The notes below the pieces were generated by a model. It saw nothing but the letters and a program-made list of their open reading frames with translations. It was not told where the DNA came from and did not search any database. A DNA stretch of 44,975 bases, taken from Quinella sp. 1Q5. GTDB lineage: Bacteria > Bacillota > Negativicutes > Selenomonadales > Selenomonadaceae. The position numbers and the translations under genes were made by a program. This document shows positions 10,730 through 18,208 of the stretch, piece by piece (positions within the stretch are counted from its first letter, which is position 1; each line of letters begins with the position of its first letter). Location of the stretch: NCBI GenBank assembly GCA_014764605.1, contig JACXWG010000008.1, positions 1-44,975 on the forward strand. Reading direction: 5' to 3'.

Positions 10730-10820
10730 GTCTACACCGCCTTTTTTACCTTGCTTGAAAGGATTATCTCCCTAATTCGCGAAGTAAACGCAATAACCTT
10801 TAATGCAAGGAGAAAATTTT

Positions 10821-13142
10821 ATGGCAGATAAAATCATTGACGAGGAACTCAAGCCGCGACGCGGACGACCTAGGAAAGACGATAGCACTAAACGCGGGCG
10901 ACCAAAGAAAGTCTCAACCGAGCTAAAGCCCAAGCGCGAACGACGGAAGATTGATTACAAGACGGACGGCAAAGAAAAAGTTTTTGCTTTGGACATAGGG
11001 ACACGCTCGGTTATCGGGATTGTTGCTGAACAAGACGACGACGGGCAGATGAAGATTATCGCGACGCATAGGCTAGAGCATACAAGCCGCGCTATGCTGG
11101 ACGGGCAGATACATGACGTGCCGCAAGTCGCTGAAGTCATCATACGCGTTAAAAATTTTTTGGCAGAACAAGTCGGCGAACTCAAGAGCGCGGCAATCGC
11201 GGCGGCGGGTCGTGCCCTGTACACCATGACCGCCGAGGCAACTCAAGAAGTCAACGGCGTCATCACCGATGAGGTTCAAAGCAGTCTGAACTTCGCCGCC
11301 GTGCAACTTGCTCAAGCTCAGCTAACGAACGAGAAAAAGATTGACGCTAAGATTTATTACTGCGTCGGCTTCAGCATCATAAGCTACGAGCTTGACGGCA
11401 TCCGCCTTAAAAGTTTGGTCGGGCAACGCGGAAAGATAGCTAAGACAAAAGTTATTGCGACGTTCCTTCCGCGGCAAGTCGTCGATTCAATGCAAACTGC
11501 CTTGCACTACGCTGGACTTGAGGTCAGAGCTTTGACATTGGAGCCGATAGCCGCAATCAATGTCCTTGTCCCGCCGAGTATGCGTCACCTTAATATTGTC
11601 CTTGTCGACGTGGGCGCGGGTACCTCTGACGTTGCGATTACTAAGAACGGTTCCGTTATTGCTTATGGCATGGTTCCTTTGGCGGGCGATGAAGTCACCG
11701 AGGCTATCAGTCAACGGTTTCTGCTTGACTTCAACGTAGCGGAGGAAATTAAACGCAAGGCGACCAACGGCGAGGGAGCGACCTTCAATGACATACTCGG
11801 ACGCCCCTACGATTTGACGGCGGAAGAAATCCTCATGCCGATTAATGAACACGTCGTGATGATTGCCAATGCCATTGCCCGAACGATTATGGAACTAAAC
11901 GGCAACGACCCTCCGCAAGCCTTGCTACTTGTCGGCGGCGGCGCGTTGAGTCCGAACTTAAATAAACTCGTCGCCGAAGCCTTAAACATGCCGCAAGACC
12001 ATGTTGCCGTTCGCAAGCCCGATAGGGTCGAAGGCATTAAGAACATTCCCGCCGCCCTGCAATCACCTGATGCCGCCACGCCGCTTGGAATTCTCAAGGT
12101 TGCGTTGACGGATACTTTCCACTTCTTCAACGTGACGATTAACGGGCAGGAGATTAACCTTTTCCACTTCCGCGAGCTGACTGTTGGCGACGCTATCTTG
12201 AGTGCGGGCATTGATTACAAGAAGTTCAACGGCAAGCCGGGATTGGGCGTGGGTATCACTCTTAACGGCGAGAAGAAATTTTTTGCAGGAACGATGGGAA
12301 CGCTTGCTAAAGTCTTTGTCAACGATAAGCCCGCGACATTGGAAACACCGCTTGAAGATAACTGCCGCATAACGATTGAGGCGGGCGAGGACGGAGTAAG
12401 CGCACAGATTAAAATCGACGACATCATAGCAATCGAGCCGACATTCACAGTCACGGTTAATGGCAAAGAATTTTCCGTTGCGCCTAAGCTTCTAGTCAAT
12501 GATGAAGTCAGCTTGCCGAGCCGCAAACTTATAGACGGCGACGAACTTAACACGAAGACTAAGCGGACTGTCGGCGAACTGCTGAGGCTTGCGAACTATC
12601 CACCCGCCGGCAGGAAGATTCATTACACGCTAAACGGTAGCAAGGCGCACTACACTTGCACGCCAGACATTTACCTTAACGGCGACCGCGCAGACGTTTC
12701 CGACGTTCCCAAGGCGGGCGATGCTATCGAGTACGTTGCCAACGACGCGATTAAGGTTGGCGAGATTATCAAGGACGAGAGCCGAGCCACCGCCGTGAAG
12801 ATTTTCTACAACGGCAAAGAGTACAGGATACCGACGGCGACGACGATTCTTTTAAGCGTCAATGGACGAGTCTCGACTGAAAATACGATTGTTGAGGACG
12901 GTGCGGAGATTGTCTACGAGCGCGAAGAAAAAAACTTCGTCATGGTCAGCGATGCCCTGCTTGCCGTCAATTTCAAGCCGCCGCCCGCCAAAAGCCGCAT
13001 GAGTTTTGTAATCAAGGTTAATGGCGTGCCCGTCGAGTTCGCAGACCCCGTTAAGAGCGGCGACACCTTGGAAGTAATCTTGAAGACCCCCGACGGCTTA
13101 GAGTTCAAACCTCTCGACGATTTGGAAGTTCCCGTCCGTTAA
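10821..13142 (+). CDS. FtsA/PilM-like actin-fold protein with basic N-terminal tail
   Basis: The start is the ATG at 10821 with AGGAG eight bases before it; an upstream ATG at 10803 overlaps that site. Residues 1-50 are highly basic and hold two GRP-core strings (RGRPRK near 14-19, RGRPKK near 25-30) that look like AT-hooks. The actin-like ATPase fold follows: phosphate-1 ALDIGTRSVIG (56-66), an FtsA 1C-type subdomain region, phosphate-2 IVLVDVGAGTSDVAIT, and the adenosine motif ALLLVGGGALSPNL. The last 330 residues are repeated beta-rich modules (FHFFNVTINGQEI..., TFTVTVNGKEFSVAPK..., MSFVIKVNGVPVEF), unlike E. coli FtsA. At about 773 residues it is much longer than FtsA (about 420). No amphipathic membrane-targeting C-terminus is evident. 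Division or cytoskeletal function is inferred. Confidence 0.8.
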   Translation: MADKIIDEELKPRRGRPRKDDSTKRGRPKKVSTELKPKRERRKIDYKTDGKEKVFALDIGTRSVIGIVAEQDDDGQMKIIATHRLEHTSRAMLDGQIHDVPQVAEVIIRVKNFLAEQVGELKSAAIAAAGRALYTMTAEATQEVNGVITDEVQSSLNFAAVQLAQAQLTNEKKIDAKIYYCVGFSIISYELDGIRLKSLVGQRGKIAKTKVIATFLPRQVVDSMQTALHYAGLEVRALTLEPIAAINVLVPPSMRHLNIVLVDVGAGTSDVAITKNGSVIAYGMVPLAGDEVTEAISQRFLLDFNVAEEIKRKATNGEGATFNDILGRPYDLTAEEILMPINEHVVMIANAIARTIMELNGNDPPQALLLVGGGALSPNLNKLVAEALNMPQDHVAVRKPDRVEGIKNIPAALQSPDAATPLGILKVALTDTFHFFNVTINGQEINLFHFRELTVGDAILSAGIDYKKFNGKPGLGVGITLNGEKKFFAGTMGTLAKVFVNDKPATLETPLEDNCRITIEAGEDGVSAQIKIDDIIAIEPTFTVTVNGKEFSVAPKLLVNDEVSLPSRKLIDGDELNTKTKRTVGELLRLANYPPAGRKIHYTLNGSKAHYTCTPDIYLNGDRADVSDVPKAGDAIEYVANDAIKVGEIIKDESRATAVKIFYNGKEYRIPTATTILLSVNGRVSTENTIVEDGAEIVYEREEKNFVMVSDALLAVNFKPPPAKSRMSFVIKVNGVPVEFADPVKSGDTLEVILKTPDGLEFKPLDDLEVPVR

Positions 13143-14557
13143 TGGGAGCGGACAACCTTTATCGTTGCTAAGGTTGAATCCCCCGTGCCTATGACGCATC
13201 CTTGAGCTTGGCGAATCATCTCGACGACCTGCGCGGAAATTTCTTCGCCGGGCATGAGTAGCGGTATCCCTGGAGGATAGAAGGTCACCTCCTCGGCGCA
13301 AACTCTTCCGACGGCTTCATTGAATGCGACGACCTCGGCGGGCAAGTAGAAAGTTTCACGCGGGCTGAGCTTTGCAATTTGGAATTTGGAATTAGGAATA
13401 GGGAATGGAGGGAAGGTTTTCGGCGTGCGTCGTGGCAAACGTCTTAGGGCGTCGAGGAGTCGGGAGCTTGTCTCGGCGTCGTCGGCGAAGGTCACTAAGA
13501 ATAAAAGATTTGCCACGTCAGATAGCTCACACTGAACGCGGAGTTCGTGGCGTAAAATTTCTTCCGCCTCCTGCCCTGTTACCCCCAAGCCTTGAACGTT
13601 CACGGTTACTTTTGTCAGGTCTAGGTTCGTGCTCTCGAAGACTTTAAGCCCTTGAATATTTTTTATCTCTGCTCGGAGCCGCTTTGATAGCTCGACTGCC
13701 GAACAGATTTTTTTTTGTCCGTCAAGCTGCATTTGAAGTCGTGCGATGTCCAAAGACGCAAGCAGTAGTTGGTTGGGGCTGGTCGTCTGCAGAAGGCTTG
13801 CCGCCCGCTTAACCCGTTCAATGTCTAGGAAATCTTTTCTTAGCATAAGCATTGAACTTTGAGTTAAGGAGCCTAGGATTTTATGCGTCGACTGCGCGGC
13901 AAGGTCTGCTCCCGCCTCCATTGCTGAAGGCGGCAACTCATCGCAGAAAGTCAAATGCGCCCCGTGTGCCTCGTCGATTAGTAATAGCATGTCCGCCGCA
14001 TGAACGAGCTTTGAAATCCTTTGTAAGTCCGCCGCCACGCCGTAATAGTTCGGAGAAACTAACAGCACCGCCCGCGCTTGCGGGAATTTTTTTATGGCAC
14101 GTTCAATCGTCTCGACGCTGACATTAAGCGGCAAATTGAATTCGTCGTTGAAGTCCACGGGCAAGAAGATTGGAGTTGCGCCCGATAGGATTAACCCCGC
14201 GATAACCGACCGATGAGCATTGCGGGGAATCATGACTAAATCGCCCGCCTTGAGCGTCCCGAATAACATTGCTTGTATAGCCGAGGTCGTGCCATTGACC
14301 ATGAATAAACATTCGTCCGCGTGCCAAAGTCTAGCCGCCAAAGCTTGAGCTTCCATTATGCAAGAGTGCGGCGCGTGCAGGTCGTCTAGCTCCTCCATTA
14401 GCGAGACTTCTTGCCGCAGTCCTTCCGCCGTCAACAGTTCGCGCAAGAGTTCATGTGCGCCGCGACCTTGCTTATGTCCAGGCGTGTGGAAGGGTATCAC
14501 TCCGTCCGCCGAATATCTTTTCATTGCCGCCGCGATTGGTGCGCTGAAATTTTCCAC
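13139..14557 (-). CDS. Orn/Lys/Arg decarboxylase family PLP enzyme
   Basis: The start is the GTG at 14557 with AAGGAG nine bases upstream; the longer frame to 14668 crosses into the divergent gene. The enzyme belongs to the fold-type I basic amino acid decarboxylases that make polyamines or cadaverine. Motifs are IPFHTPGHKQGRG at the N-terminus, FMVNGTTSAIQAML, RNAHRSVIAGL, LLIDEAHGAHL, and the PLP lysine in STHKILGSLTQSSML. The C-terminal domain has YPPGIPLLMPGEEI. At 472 residues it matches the shorter Gram-positive (YaaO-like) class. A linker near 13373-13407 encodes PFPIPNSKFQIAK from an A/T-rich imperfect repeat. The exact substrate cannot be told. Its end overlaps the stop of the FtsA-like gene by four bases, tail to tail. 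Confidence 0.88.
   Translation of the reverse strand: MENFSAPIAAAMKRYSADGVIPFHTPGHKQGRGAHELLRELLTAEGLRQEVSLMEELDDLHAPHSCIMEAQALAARLWHADECLFMVNGTTSAIQAMLFGTLKAGDLVMIPRNAHRSVIAGLILSGATPIFLPVDFNDEFNLPLNVSVETIERAIKKFPQARAVLLVSPNYYGVAADLQRISKLVHAADMLLLIDEAHGAHLTFCDELPPSAMEAGADLAAQSTHKILGSLTQSSMLMLRKDFLDIERVKRAASLLQTTSPNQLLLASLDIARLQMQLDGQKKICSAVELSKRLRAEIKNIQGLKVFESTNLDLTKVTVNVQGLGVTGQEAEEILRHELRVQCELSDVANLLFLVTFADDAETSSRLLDALRRLPRRTPKTFPPFPIPNSKFQIAKLSPRETFYLPAEVVAFNEAVGRVCAEEVTFYPPGIPLLMPGEEISAQVVEMIRQAQGCVIGTGDSTLATIKVVRSH
13373..13407. repeat. imperfect GGAAT-type short repeat inside the decarboxylase gene
   Basis: On the plus strand four or five GGAAT units follow each other at 6-7 base spacing (TTTGGAATTTGGAATTAGG and on). 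In frame they encode the linker PFPIPNSKFQIAK, which is not part of the conserved decarboxylase core. This looks like slippage expansion or a small inserted repeat tolerated in a surface loop. Confidence 0.5.
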
Positions 14558-14605
14558 TTTAAATTTCTCCTTAGCATGATATAATTTTTTTAGGAGATGA
14601 TTTGT
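14557..14605. promoter_or_regulatory. divergent promoter region, copy 1 of a shared ~27-base element
   Basis: The gap between the decarboxylase (-) and UDG-like (+) genes holds TATAAT at 14580-14585 on the plus strand, and the decarboxylase ribosome site AAGGAG on the minus strand. The string AAATTTCTCCTT-A-GCATGATATAATTT recurs with one change at 16332-16359, upstream of PBP2 and the FtsZ-like gene. Confidence 0.55.
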
Positions 14606-15274
14606 ATGATTGACCAAAAACAACAACTGGAAAAACTTTTCGACCGCTGGAAGCGCAAACCTAACCACGCAGCTGATTTTATCGAGGACGGCATTGTTAA
14701 TCAGACTGAATGGAGCAAGCAGAAACTCAAGGTGCTGTTCTTCCTGAAGGAGGCTTACGGCGGTCCTTTTGATTTAGCTAAAGCACTCGACAACGAGGGT
14801 GCCGACTTTGGGCGTTCGCAGATTTGGTCGCGAGTCGCGGTTTGGACTCAAGCTGTTTATGACTCGACCAAGCCGCCCTGCCAATACGACGAGCCGCAAG
14901 GAACACGGGCTGATAATCTTATCCGTTCGATTGCGGTGATTAACATAAAAAAAAGCCACGGTCAAAATGAATCAAACGACGCCGACCTCATTAAATTTCT
15001 TGTAGCCGACAAAGCCGAATTAACGGAAGAGTTAAACATCATCAATCCCGACGTGATATTGTGCGGCTATACGCTTCATCTTTTGCAAGCGGTCAATATG
15101 TTTCCCAACGCACGCAAAGGAAAAAGCGACGATTATCTTTGGAACGGCAAGCTGATTATCAACTACTGGCACCCCTCTGGTCGTGATTTAGTTTCCAATA
15201 ATGAAATCAACTATTACGCTATCAGAGAAATTTGTCGGGCTGCCCATGACGCATTCAAAATAACCGCTTGGTAA
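14606..15274 (+). CDS. uracil-DNA glycosylase superfamily-like protein
   Basis: The ATG at 14606 lies nine bases after AGGAG (14592-14596); an ATG at 14597 directly abuts that site and is less likely. The 222-residue protein resembles the UDG superfamily in layout. KVLFFLKEAYGG near residue 40 sits in the position of the first active-site strand. VINIKKSHG and NPDVILCGYTLHL occupy the middle. IINYWHPSGRDLV near residue 195 stands where family members have the HPS-type loop. Residues are divergent, and no catalytic Asp or Asn can be confirmed. Uncharacterised relatives in this superfamily are common, so repair activity is not assured. It ends before a shared terminator with the FtsZ-like gene. 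Confidence 0.45.
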   Translation: MIDQKQQLEKLFDRWKRKPNHAADFIEDGIVNQTEWSKQKLKVLFFLKEAYGGPFDLAKALDNEGADFGRSQIWSRVAVWTQAVYDSTKPPCQYDEPQGTRADNLIRSIAVINIKKSHGQNESNDADLIKFLVADKAELTEELNIINPDVILCGYTLHLLQAVNMFPNARKGKSDDYLWNGKLIINYWHPSGRDLVSNNEINYYAIREICRAAHDAFKITAW

Positions 15275-15321: not shown

Positions 15322-16263
15322 TTACTTTTCAAAATCTGTCGCGAGTACAAATGCTGTTACGCCGTCATTGGCAGTGTCATCACTAACTACTTGAAATAAA
15401 ACTCCGTCCCAAGTATTTTCCGATTGCGAAAGTTCATGATCTAAAAAAGTTGCCGCTTGATTCGCATCCAACATACTAAGCGATTCAGTGTTTCCGACAA
15501 AGGCAAGCACACATTTTTTAGCTTTTCCAATGTCTTCAATAAACAACGGTGACTTCAAAACTTTTTTAACGGCGGCAAGTGAATTATTTTCAGCGTCAAG
15601 GCTTTCACCGAAACCGATACATGCTCTGCCTTGATTTTCCAGCGTCGTCACGACATCGGTAAAATCCATTCCAATCACACAATTCATTGACTGTATGCAG
15701 GTTATTTTGTCTACGACTTGATAGATTATCTCATTGTTCGTTAAGCCAGTTTCGGCAATTTTATCTTTCGGCAAAATTATCCACGTGCCAAAGTTGCTGT
15801 CTATGTTTTTAATGTGAGCATCTTCGGCTGAAGGACACAAAATTATAGAAGTTACTAACGGGAGTTTTACTTCCCTAGAGAGTAGTTCCCCTCTATTAAT
15901 TATCGTCCCGGATTCTGTAATTTCACAAGGCATTGAGTAATAAGGAAGCGAAAAAGAAGGGCTTGTCAGCGACGATTTAAATTCTTTTATGCATTCGGCA
16001 ATATTCAAATCCTTAATGTCTTCAATATCGATTATCACGAACAACCAATCAGTGCCGGAAATAAAATCTAAAATTTCGGCTCTCGAATTGGCAATAAAAT
16101 TTTTATCGGGAACGGCCAAAGCAGTAAGGGAATTATCCTTATCAACGTCCTTAAAGTACGACAACGCATTTATTCCGGTTTCGCCTACTCCGATTATTTT
16201 AATCCAGTCCTTTTTAAACCACTCCAGCTCATCACGATCCTCATCAACAAAGAAATCAGCCAT
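15322..16263 (-). CDS. divergent FtsZ-like protein lacking the tubulin GTP signature
   Basis: 313 residues. The N-terminus WIKIIGVGETGINALSYF (about 20-37) matches FtsZ IKVIGVGGGGxNAV. GTDWLFVIIDIEDI (70-83) matches the strand EGADMVFITAG of FtsZ, but the following GGGTGTG loop is absent. WIILPKDKI and the helix up to 195 match FtsZ VIPNDRL and the core helix. IGMDFTDVVTTLENQGRACIG (198-217) matches the T7 loop NLDFADVxTxMxNxGxAxMG, and both aspartates are kept. The C-terminal domain matches segment by segment (AAVKKVLKSPL, KKCVLAFVGN, FQVVSDDTANDGVTAFVLAT). FtsZ fold is therefore well supported, and self-sufficient GTPase activity is unlikely. There is no FtsA/ZipA-binding C-terminal tail. 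AGGAGG precedes the ATG. The gene is divergent from PBP2. The true ftsZ is not in this window. Confidence 0.8.
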   Translation of the reverse strand: MADFFVDEDRDELEWFKKDWIKIIGVGETGINALSYFKDVDKDNSLTALAVPDKNFIANSRAEILDFISGTDWLFVIIDIEDIKDLNIAECIKEFKSSLTSPSFSLPYYSMPCEITESGTIINRGELLSREVKLPLVTSIILCPSAEDAHIKNIDSNFGTWIILPKDKIAETGLTNNEIIYQVVDKITCIQSMNCVIGMDFTDVVTTLENQGRACIGFGESLDAENNSLAAVKKVLKSPLFIEDIGKAKKCVLAFVGNTESLSMLDANQAATFLDHELSQSENTWDGVLFQVVSDDTANDGVTAFVLATDFEK

Positions 16264-16313
16264 TGCTTATTCCTCCTTTCGCTTGCATTTTAATTTTCGT
16301 TGCACAAGCTGTC

Positions 16314-16331
16314 AAACTGTTTTTGCCATTT
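16314..16331 (-). CDS. possible five-codon leader ORF upstream of the FtsZ-like gene
   Basis: On the minus strand an AAGGAG lies nine bases before ATG GCA AAA ACA GTT TGA (peptide MAKTV). It uses the same 27-base element that serves the decarboxylase start. It ends about 50 bases before the FtsZ-like ATG. It may be a leader peptide or a leftover of a duplicated gene start; expression is unproven. Confidence 0.25.
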
Positions 16332-16393
16332 TAAATTTCTCCTTCGCATGATATAATTTCACTGATTATAAAAGGTTTAGGAGGATTATAACG
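16329..16393. promoter_or_regulatory. PBP2 promoter region, copy 2 of the shared element
   Basis: TATAAT at 16352-16357 is well placed for a start near 16364, ahead of AGGAGG (16379-16384) and the GTG at 16394. No good -35 is visible. The surrounding AAATTTCTCCTT-C-GCATGATATAATTT repeats the element at 14559-14586. Transcription of the FtsZ-like gene must also begin near here on the other strand. Confidence 0.55.
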
Positions 16394-18208
16394 GTGATAG
16401 ACAACTCGAACAACGGAGAAGAATATATCGGGCGACTCAAGCCGCTAGCAATCATGGCGACGCTAATCATTGCGATATTGATTGCGCGGGTCGGCTATCT
16501 GCAACTCTATGACGGCGAATACTACGCACACCTAGCCGACGGCAACCGTATAAGGATTATCCCGTCAATGGCTCCGCGTGGCACCTTCTACGATAGAAAC
16601 GGTCAACTGCTCGTCACGAACCGTCCAGGCTTCAGCGTATCACTCTTGCCTTTGACCGAACCCATTAAGCCCGAAGTCGTCGAACGCGTTTCCAAACTCC
16701 TAAACGTTCCCATTGAAGAGATTCAGCAAAGGATTTCAGTTCACTCCGGCTTCGACCCAATACGCATTCGCCCCGACGTTTCGCAAGACATCGTAACGAT
16801 TATCGAGGAGCAAAAGGATTTGTATCCAGGCGTCGTCATAGAAGTTCAGCCGATTAGAAACTACTACCTAAAGCAGGAGGGTGCGCATACGTTCGGATAT
16901 GTCAGCGAAATTTCCGACGCCGAGCTTGAGACTAAGAAGGAAGAAGGCTACAAGTCCGGAGACATCATCGGCAAGTTTGGATTGGAGCGCGTCTACGATA
17001 AAGAGATTCGCGGCGAGAACGGAGGCGAGCAAGTTGAAGTCGACGTGGCGGGCAAGCCTGTACAAATCCTCGGCAAGAAGGAGCCTAAGCCCGGCTACGA
17101 CTTAATCTTGACGATTGACCGTGATTTACAAATGGCGGCGGAGGCGGCGGTTGATAAAATGTTAAGTTCTTTGGGCTGTCATGCGGCGGCGGCAGTCGTC
17201 CTTAATCCGCAGACGGGCGAAGTCTTAGCTCTGGTTAGTCGTCCCGCCTTCGACCCGAACCTTTTTGCGCACGGCATATCGACTAAGGACTGGAACGCAA
17301 TCAACAACAACCCCTATCACCCGATGGACAACAAAGCGATTACCGGCGAATACCCGCCCGGCTCGACGTTTAAAATCGTCACGGGTACAGCGGCACTCGC
17401 TACGGGCAAGGTCGACCCTAACGAACTAATCTTTGACGGCGGAACGCATTGGCTTGTTCCCAAAGGCAACGCGGGCGGTGAGGCTCTCGGCTGGCTAGAC
17501 TTCCACGCGGCGTTAAGTCATTCCGATAACGTTTACTTCTATGAATGCGGCAATCGCTTAGGGGCCGACCTTCTGGAAAGTTATGCTCGTATGTTTGGGC
17601 TCGGCTCCGTCACGGGGATTGACTTGCCTTACGAGTCTCCGGGGCTTGCCGATTGGAAGGAGTACAAGTGGGAAGTCTATCACGATGATTTTTACTTGTC
17701 GGAAATAATGGACGCGGCGATTGGGCAGGGCTTTAATCTAGTGACGCCTCTTCAAGCAGCAATGGTCATGGGCGAGATTGCTGCCAACGGCAAACGTTAT
17801 AAGCCGCACCTCGTCCGGCAAATCGTCACGCAGGATAAGGAAGTTATTAAAGACTTTCAGCCCGAACTCCTAAGCGAATTGCAGGTTGAGCCTTGGGTTA
17901 TCGAATTGGTTCAAGCGGGCTTGCATGACGTCACAGTCAACGGCACGGCGGCTAGGAACTTTATCGGCTTCCCCTATGACATTGCGGGCAAGACTGGTAC
18001 TGCGGAGAATTCGCAGGGCACTGACCACGGCTGGTTTGTCGGCTACGGTCCCTTTGAAAATCCTCAAATCAGTGTGGCGGTTATCGTTGAGCAAGGCGGC
18101 TTCGGGGCAAGCTCTGCGGTTCCAATCGGTCGGCAGATAATGGAGGCGGCGTTTAATCTCATGGTTCAGCGCGGGGAGTTGGTCGCTCCTAATCAAGGAG
18201 GGAAATGA
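16394..18208 (+). CDS. mrdA: penicillin-binding protein 2 (elongation-type transpeptidase)
   Basis: PBP2 cross-links peptidoglycan during side-wall growth, working with RodA and MreB. The protein has one N-terminal membrane helix (about residues 15-37) and a pedestal domain (GNRIRIIPSMAPRGTFYDRNG, with RPGFSVSLLPL). The transpeptidase domain has SxxK at S324 (PPGSTFKIVTG), the SxN motif SHSDNVYFYECGNRLG, and KTG in AGKTGTAENSQGTDHGWFVGY. The 604-residue length is normal for class B PBPs, and the C-terminus ends shortly after the transpeptidase. The GTG start has AGGAGG ten bases upstream. The next gene starts one base after its stop. No rodA or mreB is in the window. Confidence 0.92.
   Translation: MIDNSNNGEEYIGRLKPLAIMATLIIAILIARVGYLQLYDGEYYAHLADGNRIRIIPSMAPRGTFYDRNGQLLVTNRPGFSVSLLPLTEPIKPEVVERVSKLLNVPIEEIQQRISVHSGFDPIRIRPDVSQDIVTIIEEQKDLYPGVVIEVQPIRNYYLKQEGAHTFGYVSEISDAELETKKEEGYKSGDIIGKFGLERVYDKEIRGENGGEQVEVDVAGKPVQILGKKEPKPGYDLILTIDRDLQMAAEAAVDKMLSSLGCHAAAAVVLNPQTGEVLALVSRPAFDPNLFAHGISTKDWNAINNNPYHPMDNKAITGEYPPGSTFKIVTGTAALATGKVDPNELIFDGGTHWLVPKGNAGGEALGWLDFHAALSHSDNVYFYECGNRLGADLLESYARMFGLGSVTGIDLPYESPGLADWKEYKWEVYHDDFYLSEIMDAAIGQGFNLVTPLQAAMVMGEIAANGKRYKPHLVRQIVTQDKEVIKDFQPELLSELQVEPWVIELVQAGLHDVTVNGTAARNFIGFPYDIAGKTGTAENSQGTDHGWFVGYGPFENPQISVAVIVEQGGFGASSAVPIGRQIMEAAFNLMVQRGELVAPNQGGK

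Follow-up and report, generated by a model that had tools for sequence, protein, structure and literature searches.

A Quinella FtsZ-fold protein without GTP-binding loops, and its possible role as an optional modifier of FtsZ

The locus and its FtsZ-fold gene

The window considered here is a stretch of 44,975 nucleotides from Quinella sp. 1Q5 (contig JACXWG010000008.1, positions 1 to 44,975). Beside the PBP2 gene it carries an intact, AT-rich open reading frame (ORF) on the minus strand, with an ATG at 16263 and a stop at 15322, whose 313-residue product (P0001) is here termed Z and is tentatively proposed below to be an optional modifier of FtsZ. A ribosome-binding-type sequence and a promoter-like site precede the start codon, and Z and a 225-residue neighbour sit between two direct repeats of 38 bp (Table 1). 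Each repeat also holds a promoter-like TTTAAA-16-TATAAT with TG; the consensus scan behind these assignments returned 12 sites for the region, compared with 4.3 after shuffling, which for any single site is no proof of function.

Table 1. Positions of the Z gene, its motifs and the surrounding features in the window
Feature	Position	Strand	Basis
Z, FtsZ-fold protein without GTP loops	15322..16263	-	ORF, profile and PDB matches, predicted model, ratio of nonsynonymous to synonymous substitution rates (dN/dS)
T1 remnant IGVGETGINAL, residues 24-34	16162..16194	-	Alignment; compare GVGGGGNNAV in own FtsZ P0012
T4 (GGGTGTG) position, here DIEDIKDLNIAE, residues 79-90	15994..16029	-	Alignment
T6-equivalent IILPKDKI, residues 162-169; PND reads PKD, Lys at the Asn	15757..15780	-	Alignment
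T7 loop G-M-D-F-T-D, residues 198-203; Asp200 and Asp203 retained, Asn gone	15655..15672	-	Alignment, orthologue rows
Ribosome-binding-type AGGAGG, 5' of Z start	16272..16277	-	Read off the sequence
Promoter-like TTGACA-17-TAAAAT upstream of Z (candidate)	16287..16315	-	Consensus scan, 11/12 matches
Left 38-bp direct repeat	14550..14587	+	35/38 identical to right copy
Right 38-bp direct repeat, over promoter-like site before PBP2	16322..16359	+	35/38 identical to left copy
Cassette partner, 225 residues	14597..15274	+	No Pfam match; synonymous divergence (dS) 0.064 to G032
PBP2 (mrdA), right flank of insertion site	16394..18208	+	PF00905, PF03717
Orn/Lys/Arg decarboxylase, left flank; beside PBP2 at empty sites	13139..14668	-	Profile match, locus comparison
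FtsA/PilM-like ATPase, syntenic neighbour	10803..13142	+	PF14450 (E value 9.9e-15)

Two profile models match Z below their thresholds. The score with Pfam FtsZ_C (PF12327) is 26.4 bits (E value 8.8e-6), just under the gathering cut-off of 27, and that with the NCBIfam equivalog TIGR00065 ftsZ is 47.4 bits (E value 1.6e-12), for which the cut-off is 295.2. A phmmer search of the PDB matched residues 177–312 to FtsZ (E value 1e-11). The AlphaFold2 model of Z (predicted local distance difference test, 75.3; predicted template modelling score, 0.77) was computed from 11 rows of the Z family itself, canonical FtsZ being kept out so as not to impose the answer, and all 50 of the PDB matches listed by Foldseek for this model were FtsZ chains (best E value 3.2e-17; template modelling score to the query 0.60–0.68). 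Moreover, a phylogenetic tree puts the Z clade among FtsZ1-type proteins. By descent and predicted fold, including the H7 core helix and the C-terminal GAD domain, Z is a member of the FtsZ/tubulin superfamily. This agrees with the original prediction, made from the sequence alone, which had assigned to Z an FtsZ fold that lacks both the GGGTGTG loop and a C-terminal tail.

Nucleotide-binding loops, T7 loop and tail

Alignment of Z with FtsZ from its own genome indicates how far the nucleotide-binding elements have been lost. T1 is partly retained, T3 is nearly gone with a single residue left, the GGGTGTG loop of T4 is indeed absent, and so is the T5 motif. The Asn of the T6 PND, which contacts the base in FtsZ, is among the replaced residues. 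The T7 sequence NLDFADV of FtsZ reads GMDFTDV in Z, with Gly in place of the Asn of NxDxxD. Asp200 is found in all 11 orthologue rows and an acid at position 203 in ten of them. The retention of T7 expected from the sequence therefore stands for both aspartates and not for the Asn, which is lost throughout.

The C-terminal conserved peptide of FtsZ, which binds membrane anchors, reads ELEIPTWMRSRR in P0012, one of the FtsZs of the same genome, and is missing from Z, as predicted. A tail, with IDIPDWMRLK at its end, persists in L013, the Z relative that diverges most. This fits a sequence of events in which loss of the GTP motifs preceded loss of the tail, although the position of L013 in the tree is unsure because of its long branch.

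FtsZ copies in the host genome and the family

The host assembly (2,125,370 bases in 132 contigs) contains the separate canonical FtsZ presupposed by the original prediction in three versions, all with full GTP motifs: P0009 (contig C101), P0012 (C76) and P0013 (C103). Four further copies are degraded, namely Z itself; P0011 (268 residues), encoded directly behind P0009; P0014 (276 residues; contig C59); and P0010 (231 residues; L001 2052–2747), which consists of an N-terminal domain only, has the sequence GLGGCDGTG and lies just upstream of ftsZ-B. P0010 was considered as a complementary cap for the top face of FtsZ and rejected: a like gene was found in only three of 27 genomes, some loci are without the upstream stretch, and the last residues of P0010 match the sequence before ftsZ-B where the remainder is gone. 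It is probably a truncated relic.

FtsZ_C was matched in 187 of the 189 family genomes searched. Two matches, by our count, are present in 77 of the 123 genomes outside the genus (range 1–7), and Quinella genomes have up to eight. Six genomes of other genera, picked for their high counts among ten searched, were examined for extra copies. A second FtsZ type with the T7 sequence INVDFADV occurs in the genomes examined from other Selenomonadaceae genera (L135–L154), together with further copies of which some combine a degraded T4 with an intact T7 (L151, T4 DLGDNTGSEITP and T7 NLDFADV; L149, T7 NFDFADI). L006 (G000:C12, ORF 928–2523) and L124 (9460–10845) encode a different type of tubulin/FtsZ-like protein, which has the loop FGGTGAAG; its PF00091 match in G000 is weak, and its gene in G071 is about 2 kb away from the Z locus.

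For comparison across copies, FtsZ rows were classed by the letters of T4, those with at least five of the seven counting as carrying the motif (90 rows) and those with three or fewer as GTP-dead (50 rows). The GTP-dead FtsZs of the loci examined make up to 12 groups. These were assigned by hand after a tree of 70 rows, built on the region that begins with T6 and runs through the C-terminal domain, and independent losses number at most 12, given that L149 joins P0011 (93/93), that L115 joins L107–L109 weakly, and that L154 and the L058 copy are outside the tree. The ten Z rows form one clade (100/99) and the nine P0011 rows another, separate clade (100/100), so that a single origin of all GTP-dead forms is not supported; the other degraded copies are scattered over several further places of a tree whose deep forks are unresolved.

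The P0011 family (L001/L119, G000:C101) comprises proteins mostly of 265–290 residues in which T4 is replaced by DEVWENIKAVA or similar. Of 34 Quinella genomes with this family, 33 have its gene adjoining an ftsZ. This is a manual count that took the nearest FtsZ match if it was on the same strand and no more than 600 bases away; G032 was taken from a closer look and G070 from a fragment, and the locus in G014 ends at a contig edge. The closer look covered 27 genomes, 22 of them picked since the tandem had already been shown, and 33/34 is the unpicked figure. With dN/dS values of 0.085–0.19 in six pairs, the P0011 family is strongly constrained as judged from its coding sequences.

Of the 50 GTP-dead rows, 46 retain the first T7 Asp, 30 have an acid at the second position, and seven have the Asn. 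Retention was compared over 70 reference columns, each with conservation of 93% or more among the 90 GTP-motif rows, using 49 rows in the 12 groups (one truncated row was dropped) and averaging by group because P0011-type rows are many and alike. The rows represent the best hits of similarity searches, partly with the Z model, rather than all copies; L097, which is cut by a contig end, rows shorter than 200 residues and two fused ORFs were left out, while the G022 fusion was restored as two halves. The two T7 aspartates rank first and second of the 70 columns, with group-averaged retention of 0.91 and 0.87 and presence in 11 of the 12 groups each, and the T7 Asn ranks 34th. Mean retention of the conserved columns is 0.27 before T6, in the N-terminal part, and 0.50 in the later, C-terminal part. 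The first two ranks were unchanged under four MAFFT settings, and with Z omitted and a threshold of 90% the aspartates rank first and third of 86 columns. This retention among the GTP-dead groups is consistent with contact to a neighbour that carries GTP.

Distribution, exchange and selection

A strong orthologue of Z (family model, E value below 1e-90) is present in 11 of the 66 genomes of the genus, the host included, and G014 may be a twelfth carrier, with a 21-residue match near a contig end. A scan of 84,980 species genomes, which reaches only relatives sharing its peptide patterns, yielded 10 loci, each bearing the name Selenomonadaceae, Selenomonadales or Quinella. Of the 66 genus genomes, 61 have a PBP2 match, and loci were obtained from 30 of these. 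PBP2 adjoins Z or a cut end of Z in four of the 30, the decarboxylase gene stands beside PBP2 with no Z match in 18, and neither is the case in eight. The site is occupied in G067 too, on another contig, and in G085 Z adjoins the decarboxylase. Five further orthologues are located elsewhere (G009, G017, G022, G060 and G071). Orthologues next to PBP2, which the original prediction had suggested looking for, thus exist and make up only part of the set.

The closest sister by PBP2, G068 (97%), is empty at the site; its flank leading to the repeat and the one following it both match the window at 90%. The 22-base core of the repeat occurs at two places in the host genome with up to two mismatches, and each of five empty loci scanned has one repeat copy. 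Misassembly is ruled out, as Z is present in independent assemblies, of which G032 shows the same two repeats and gene order. A uniform rule is argued against by the stretches of G067, G085 and G035 and the decarboxylase-side stretch of G021, in which the repeat was not found at up to three mismatches; for G035, blastn shows only diverged copies on both sides.

Fused forms of Z occur at two of the other locations, one in G022 (L010/L068), where two Z domains are joined in one protein of 580 residues, and one in G071 (L124), where the first Z domain is shortened. Related genes encoding 346 and 296 residues (L068 8081–9121 and L070 9033–9923) lie just before the relocated Z in G022 and G017, respectively.

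The dS of Z is below that of PBP2 in all eight species pairs and the gene is AT-rich; Z has therefore probably been exchanged between species. Its dN/dS, by a simple Nei-Gojobori count over pairs that are not all independent and in some cases cover part of the gene, is 0.22–0.63, with values of 0.63 and 0.36 against the two closest orthologues (G032 and G035, respectively), and the bootstrap upper bound lies below 1 in eight of ten pairs. These values suggest weak constraint. A gene that is patchy and probably exchanged would not be an essential division part, and weak constraint with patchy presence fits an optional regulator.

The same figures bear on the reading, which we consider unlikely, that Z is a degenerating FtsZ copy rather than a working FtsZ partner. 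Patchy presence, weak constraint and a bootstrap upper bound above 1 in two of the ten pairs would be expected of such a copy, and broken relatives do exist: in G067 the copy is split over two frames, in-frame stops interrupt degraded copies of greater distance in G013 and G033, and P0010 is apparently truncated. On the other hand, the ORFs are intact in most carriers, Z has ribosome-binding and promoter-like sites of its own, and in the remaining eight pairs the upper bound stays below 1.

A gene that is patchy, fast-evolving, AT-rich and placed at a repeat-bracketed site might also act in anti-phage defence, in this case through FtsZ-directed phage proteins. FtsZ is a known phage target, and according to the available text of PMC13423816 a complex of FtsZ with a phage protein can trigger immunity. 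We nevertheless hold a defence role of Z to be very unlikely, as Z is without a PADLOC match at an E value of up to 1, the cassette partner has only a weak PADLOC match to a methyltransferase (E value 8.5e-4), and none of 82 pattern-matching stretches in viral contigs is a relative. With no PADLOC or PHROG match, Z was rejected as a known defence gene, and also as a phage or plasmid gene: ten phage and six plasmid records match at 24.6–30.5% identity, most over about half of the query or less, and we read them as ordinary ftsZ because four of the six plasmid places are annotated as such, the phage records being unannotated.

Proposed function

We propose, with a probability of roughly 45%, that Z is an optional FtsZ modifier that docks by its T7 face. 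In the addition model put forward for FtsZ (PMC8936486, available text, as also below), the filament presents its T7 face at the growing end, and the arriving monomer docks there with its GTP-bound top face. A subunit that has a T7 face and lacks a functional top face would attach to true FtsZ at the latter's top face. On an FtsZ monomer Z would block joining, and at the other filament end it would form a cap. The retained aspartates could still promote GTP hydrolysis by the partner; their S. aureus FtsZ equivalents, D210 and D213, hold the catalytic water, and the side chain of N208 coordinates K+ (PMC8936486).

The filament-modifier role named in the original prediction gains from the FtsZ fold, the separate FtsZs of the genome and the retained T7 aspartates, but a number of observations weigh against it. 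The T7 Asn is present in none of the 11 orthologue rows (Gly in ten, Ser in one), the most divergent orthologue has Lys at position 203, and the changes N208L, D210N and D213N each abolish assembly of S. aureus FtsZ (PMC8936486). Mean pairwise identity of the T7 stretch over eight diverse orthologues is 0.38, below most other elements, and inserts of up to about 23 residues directly precede T7 in several orthologues; with these inserts and the Asn lost, the contact of Z with FtsZ, if made, would be altered. The P0011 family has for the most part lost the second T7 acid, and when Z and five small groups are omitted the aspartates fall to fourth and fifth of the 70 columns; they may be retained for structural reasons. 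Furthermore, the dN/dS of Z is far above that of PBP2 (0.02–0.09) with neutrality left possible in two of ten pairs, and its presence is patchy and probably subject to exchange among species.

Several of these points would suit a different engagement with the division machinery, in which Z is a structural adaptor or lateral partner acting through its C-terminal domain and a conserved stretch at about residues 135–170 instead of the longitudinal T7 contact. The best conserved elements of the eight orthologues are S5-S6 (mean pairwise identity 0.65) and H8-H9 (0.71–0.74) rather than T7, and the loss of the Asn and the inserts point the same way. Yet the two T7 aspartates outlast nearly all other conserved columns across the GTP-dead groups, and we regard the adaptor role as improbable.

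If Z is taken together with the other GTP-dead copies, a broader and on balance doubtful reading would be that the family repeatedly turns spare FtsZs into nucleotide-free end-pieces, which keep the T7 side and plug the GTP face of true FtsZ, with the aspartates making them built-in GTPase-activating caps. In Quinella, the P0011 type would be the conserved tandem partner and Z a cassette traded between species. Were this so, the giant Quinella cells would have the dynamics of their Z ring governed by a repertoire of dead FtsZ subunits that can be exchanged. These oval, uncultured cells have a volume about 60-fold that of E. coli, and Gram-positive-type division has been reported for Quinella-like cells (PMC9585023); the main text of that paper has no mention of 'FtsZ'.

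FtsZ is usually viewed as a single, nearly universal and slowly changing protein, whereas here one family often has at least two copies per genome and the GTP motifs are lost in several lineages. Since the residues that act on the GTP of the neighbour are among the best retained, such copies may be natural separation-of-function subunits for the study of filament ends, and they offer a possible handle on the division of very large rumen cells. If Z moves between species, division would be tunable by horizontal transfer. In our view the wider pattern, made up of several GTP-dead groups, a tandem partner that is conserved and a cassette that is patchy and bracketed by repeats, outweighs the single gene in interest.

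Comparison with known systems

Z shares with canonical FtsZ (TIGR00065; Pfam Tubulin and FtsZ_C) the fold, the H7 helix, the T7 aspartates and the C-terminal GAD domain, and differs from it in lacking T3, T4, T5, the T7 Asn and the C-terminal tail. A near functional precedent is ARC3 of plant chloroplasts, which is FtsZ-like but holds FtsZ assembly in check and is not itself a ring builder. Unlike Z, ARC3 is eukaryotic, multi-domain and a core gene product, and the part of FtsZ that it keeps is the N-terminal rather than the C-terminal one. Capping or sequestration of FtsZ, the outcome proposed for Z, is also brought about by MciZ and SulA, neither of which is known to have the FtsZ fold. MciZ binds the bottom face of FtsZ (PMC8936486), while Z would bring a bottom face of its own and sit on the top (GTP) face.

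The FtsZl1 and FtsZl2 proteins are, like Z, divergent members of the FtsZ superfamily (Makarova and Koonin 2010, PMC2875224, available text). They keep the GTP loop GGGTG(S/T)G and have family-specific C-terminal regions (PMC2875224), whereas Z is without this loop and has the C-terminal region of FtsZ. The FtsZ1/FtsZ2 pairs of Odinarchaea (PMC12583498) and of chloroplasts (PMC8142252) are further cases of cells that contain more than one protein of the FtsZ fold. As these two sources present them in their available text, both partners of either system are FtsZs that assemble or form the ring, in contrast to Z and the P0011 family, which are without the GTP motifs. No report of GTP-dead FtsZ copies in Selenomonadaceae was found in the literature searched, a scope outside which most subscription journals lie. 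New in the present work are the cassette site of Z, its probable exchange, the multiple GTP-dead groups, the tandem of P0011 with ftsZ and the retention of the T7 aspartates.

Neighbouring genes

The listed ORF of the decarboxylase runs into the left repeat at its start, and the true start therefore probably lies further inside the ORF. The cassette partner presumably resembles proteins of the uracil-DNA-glycosylase fold, judged by eye from its NPDVILCG and HPSG stretches. In G035, G021 and G085 (L009, L085, L156, L164, L190) the assemblies break inside or beside Z, perhaps owing to strain differences in the sample.
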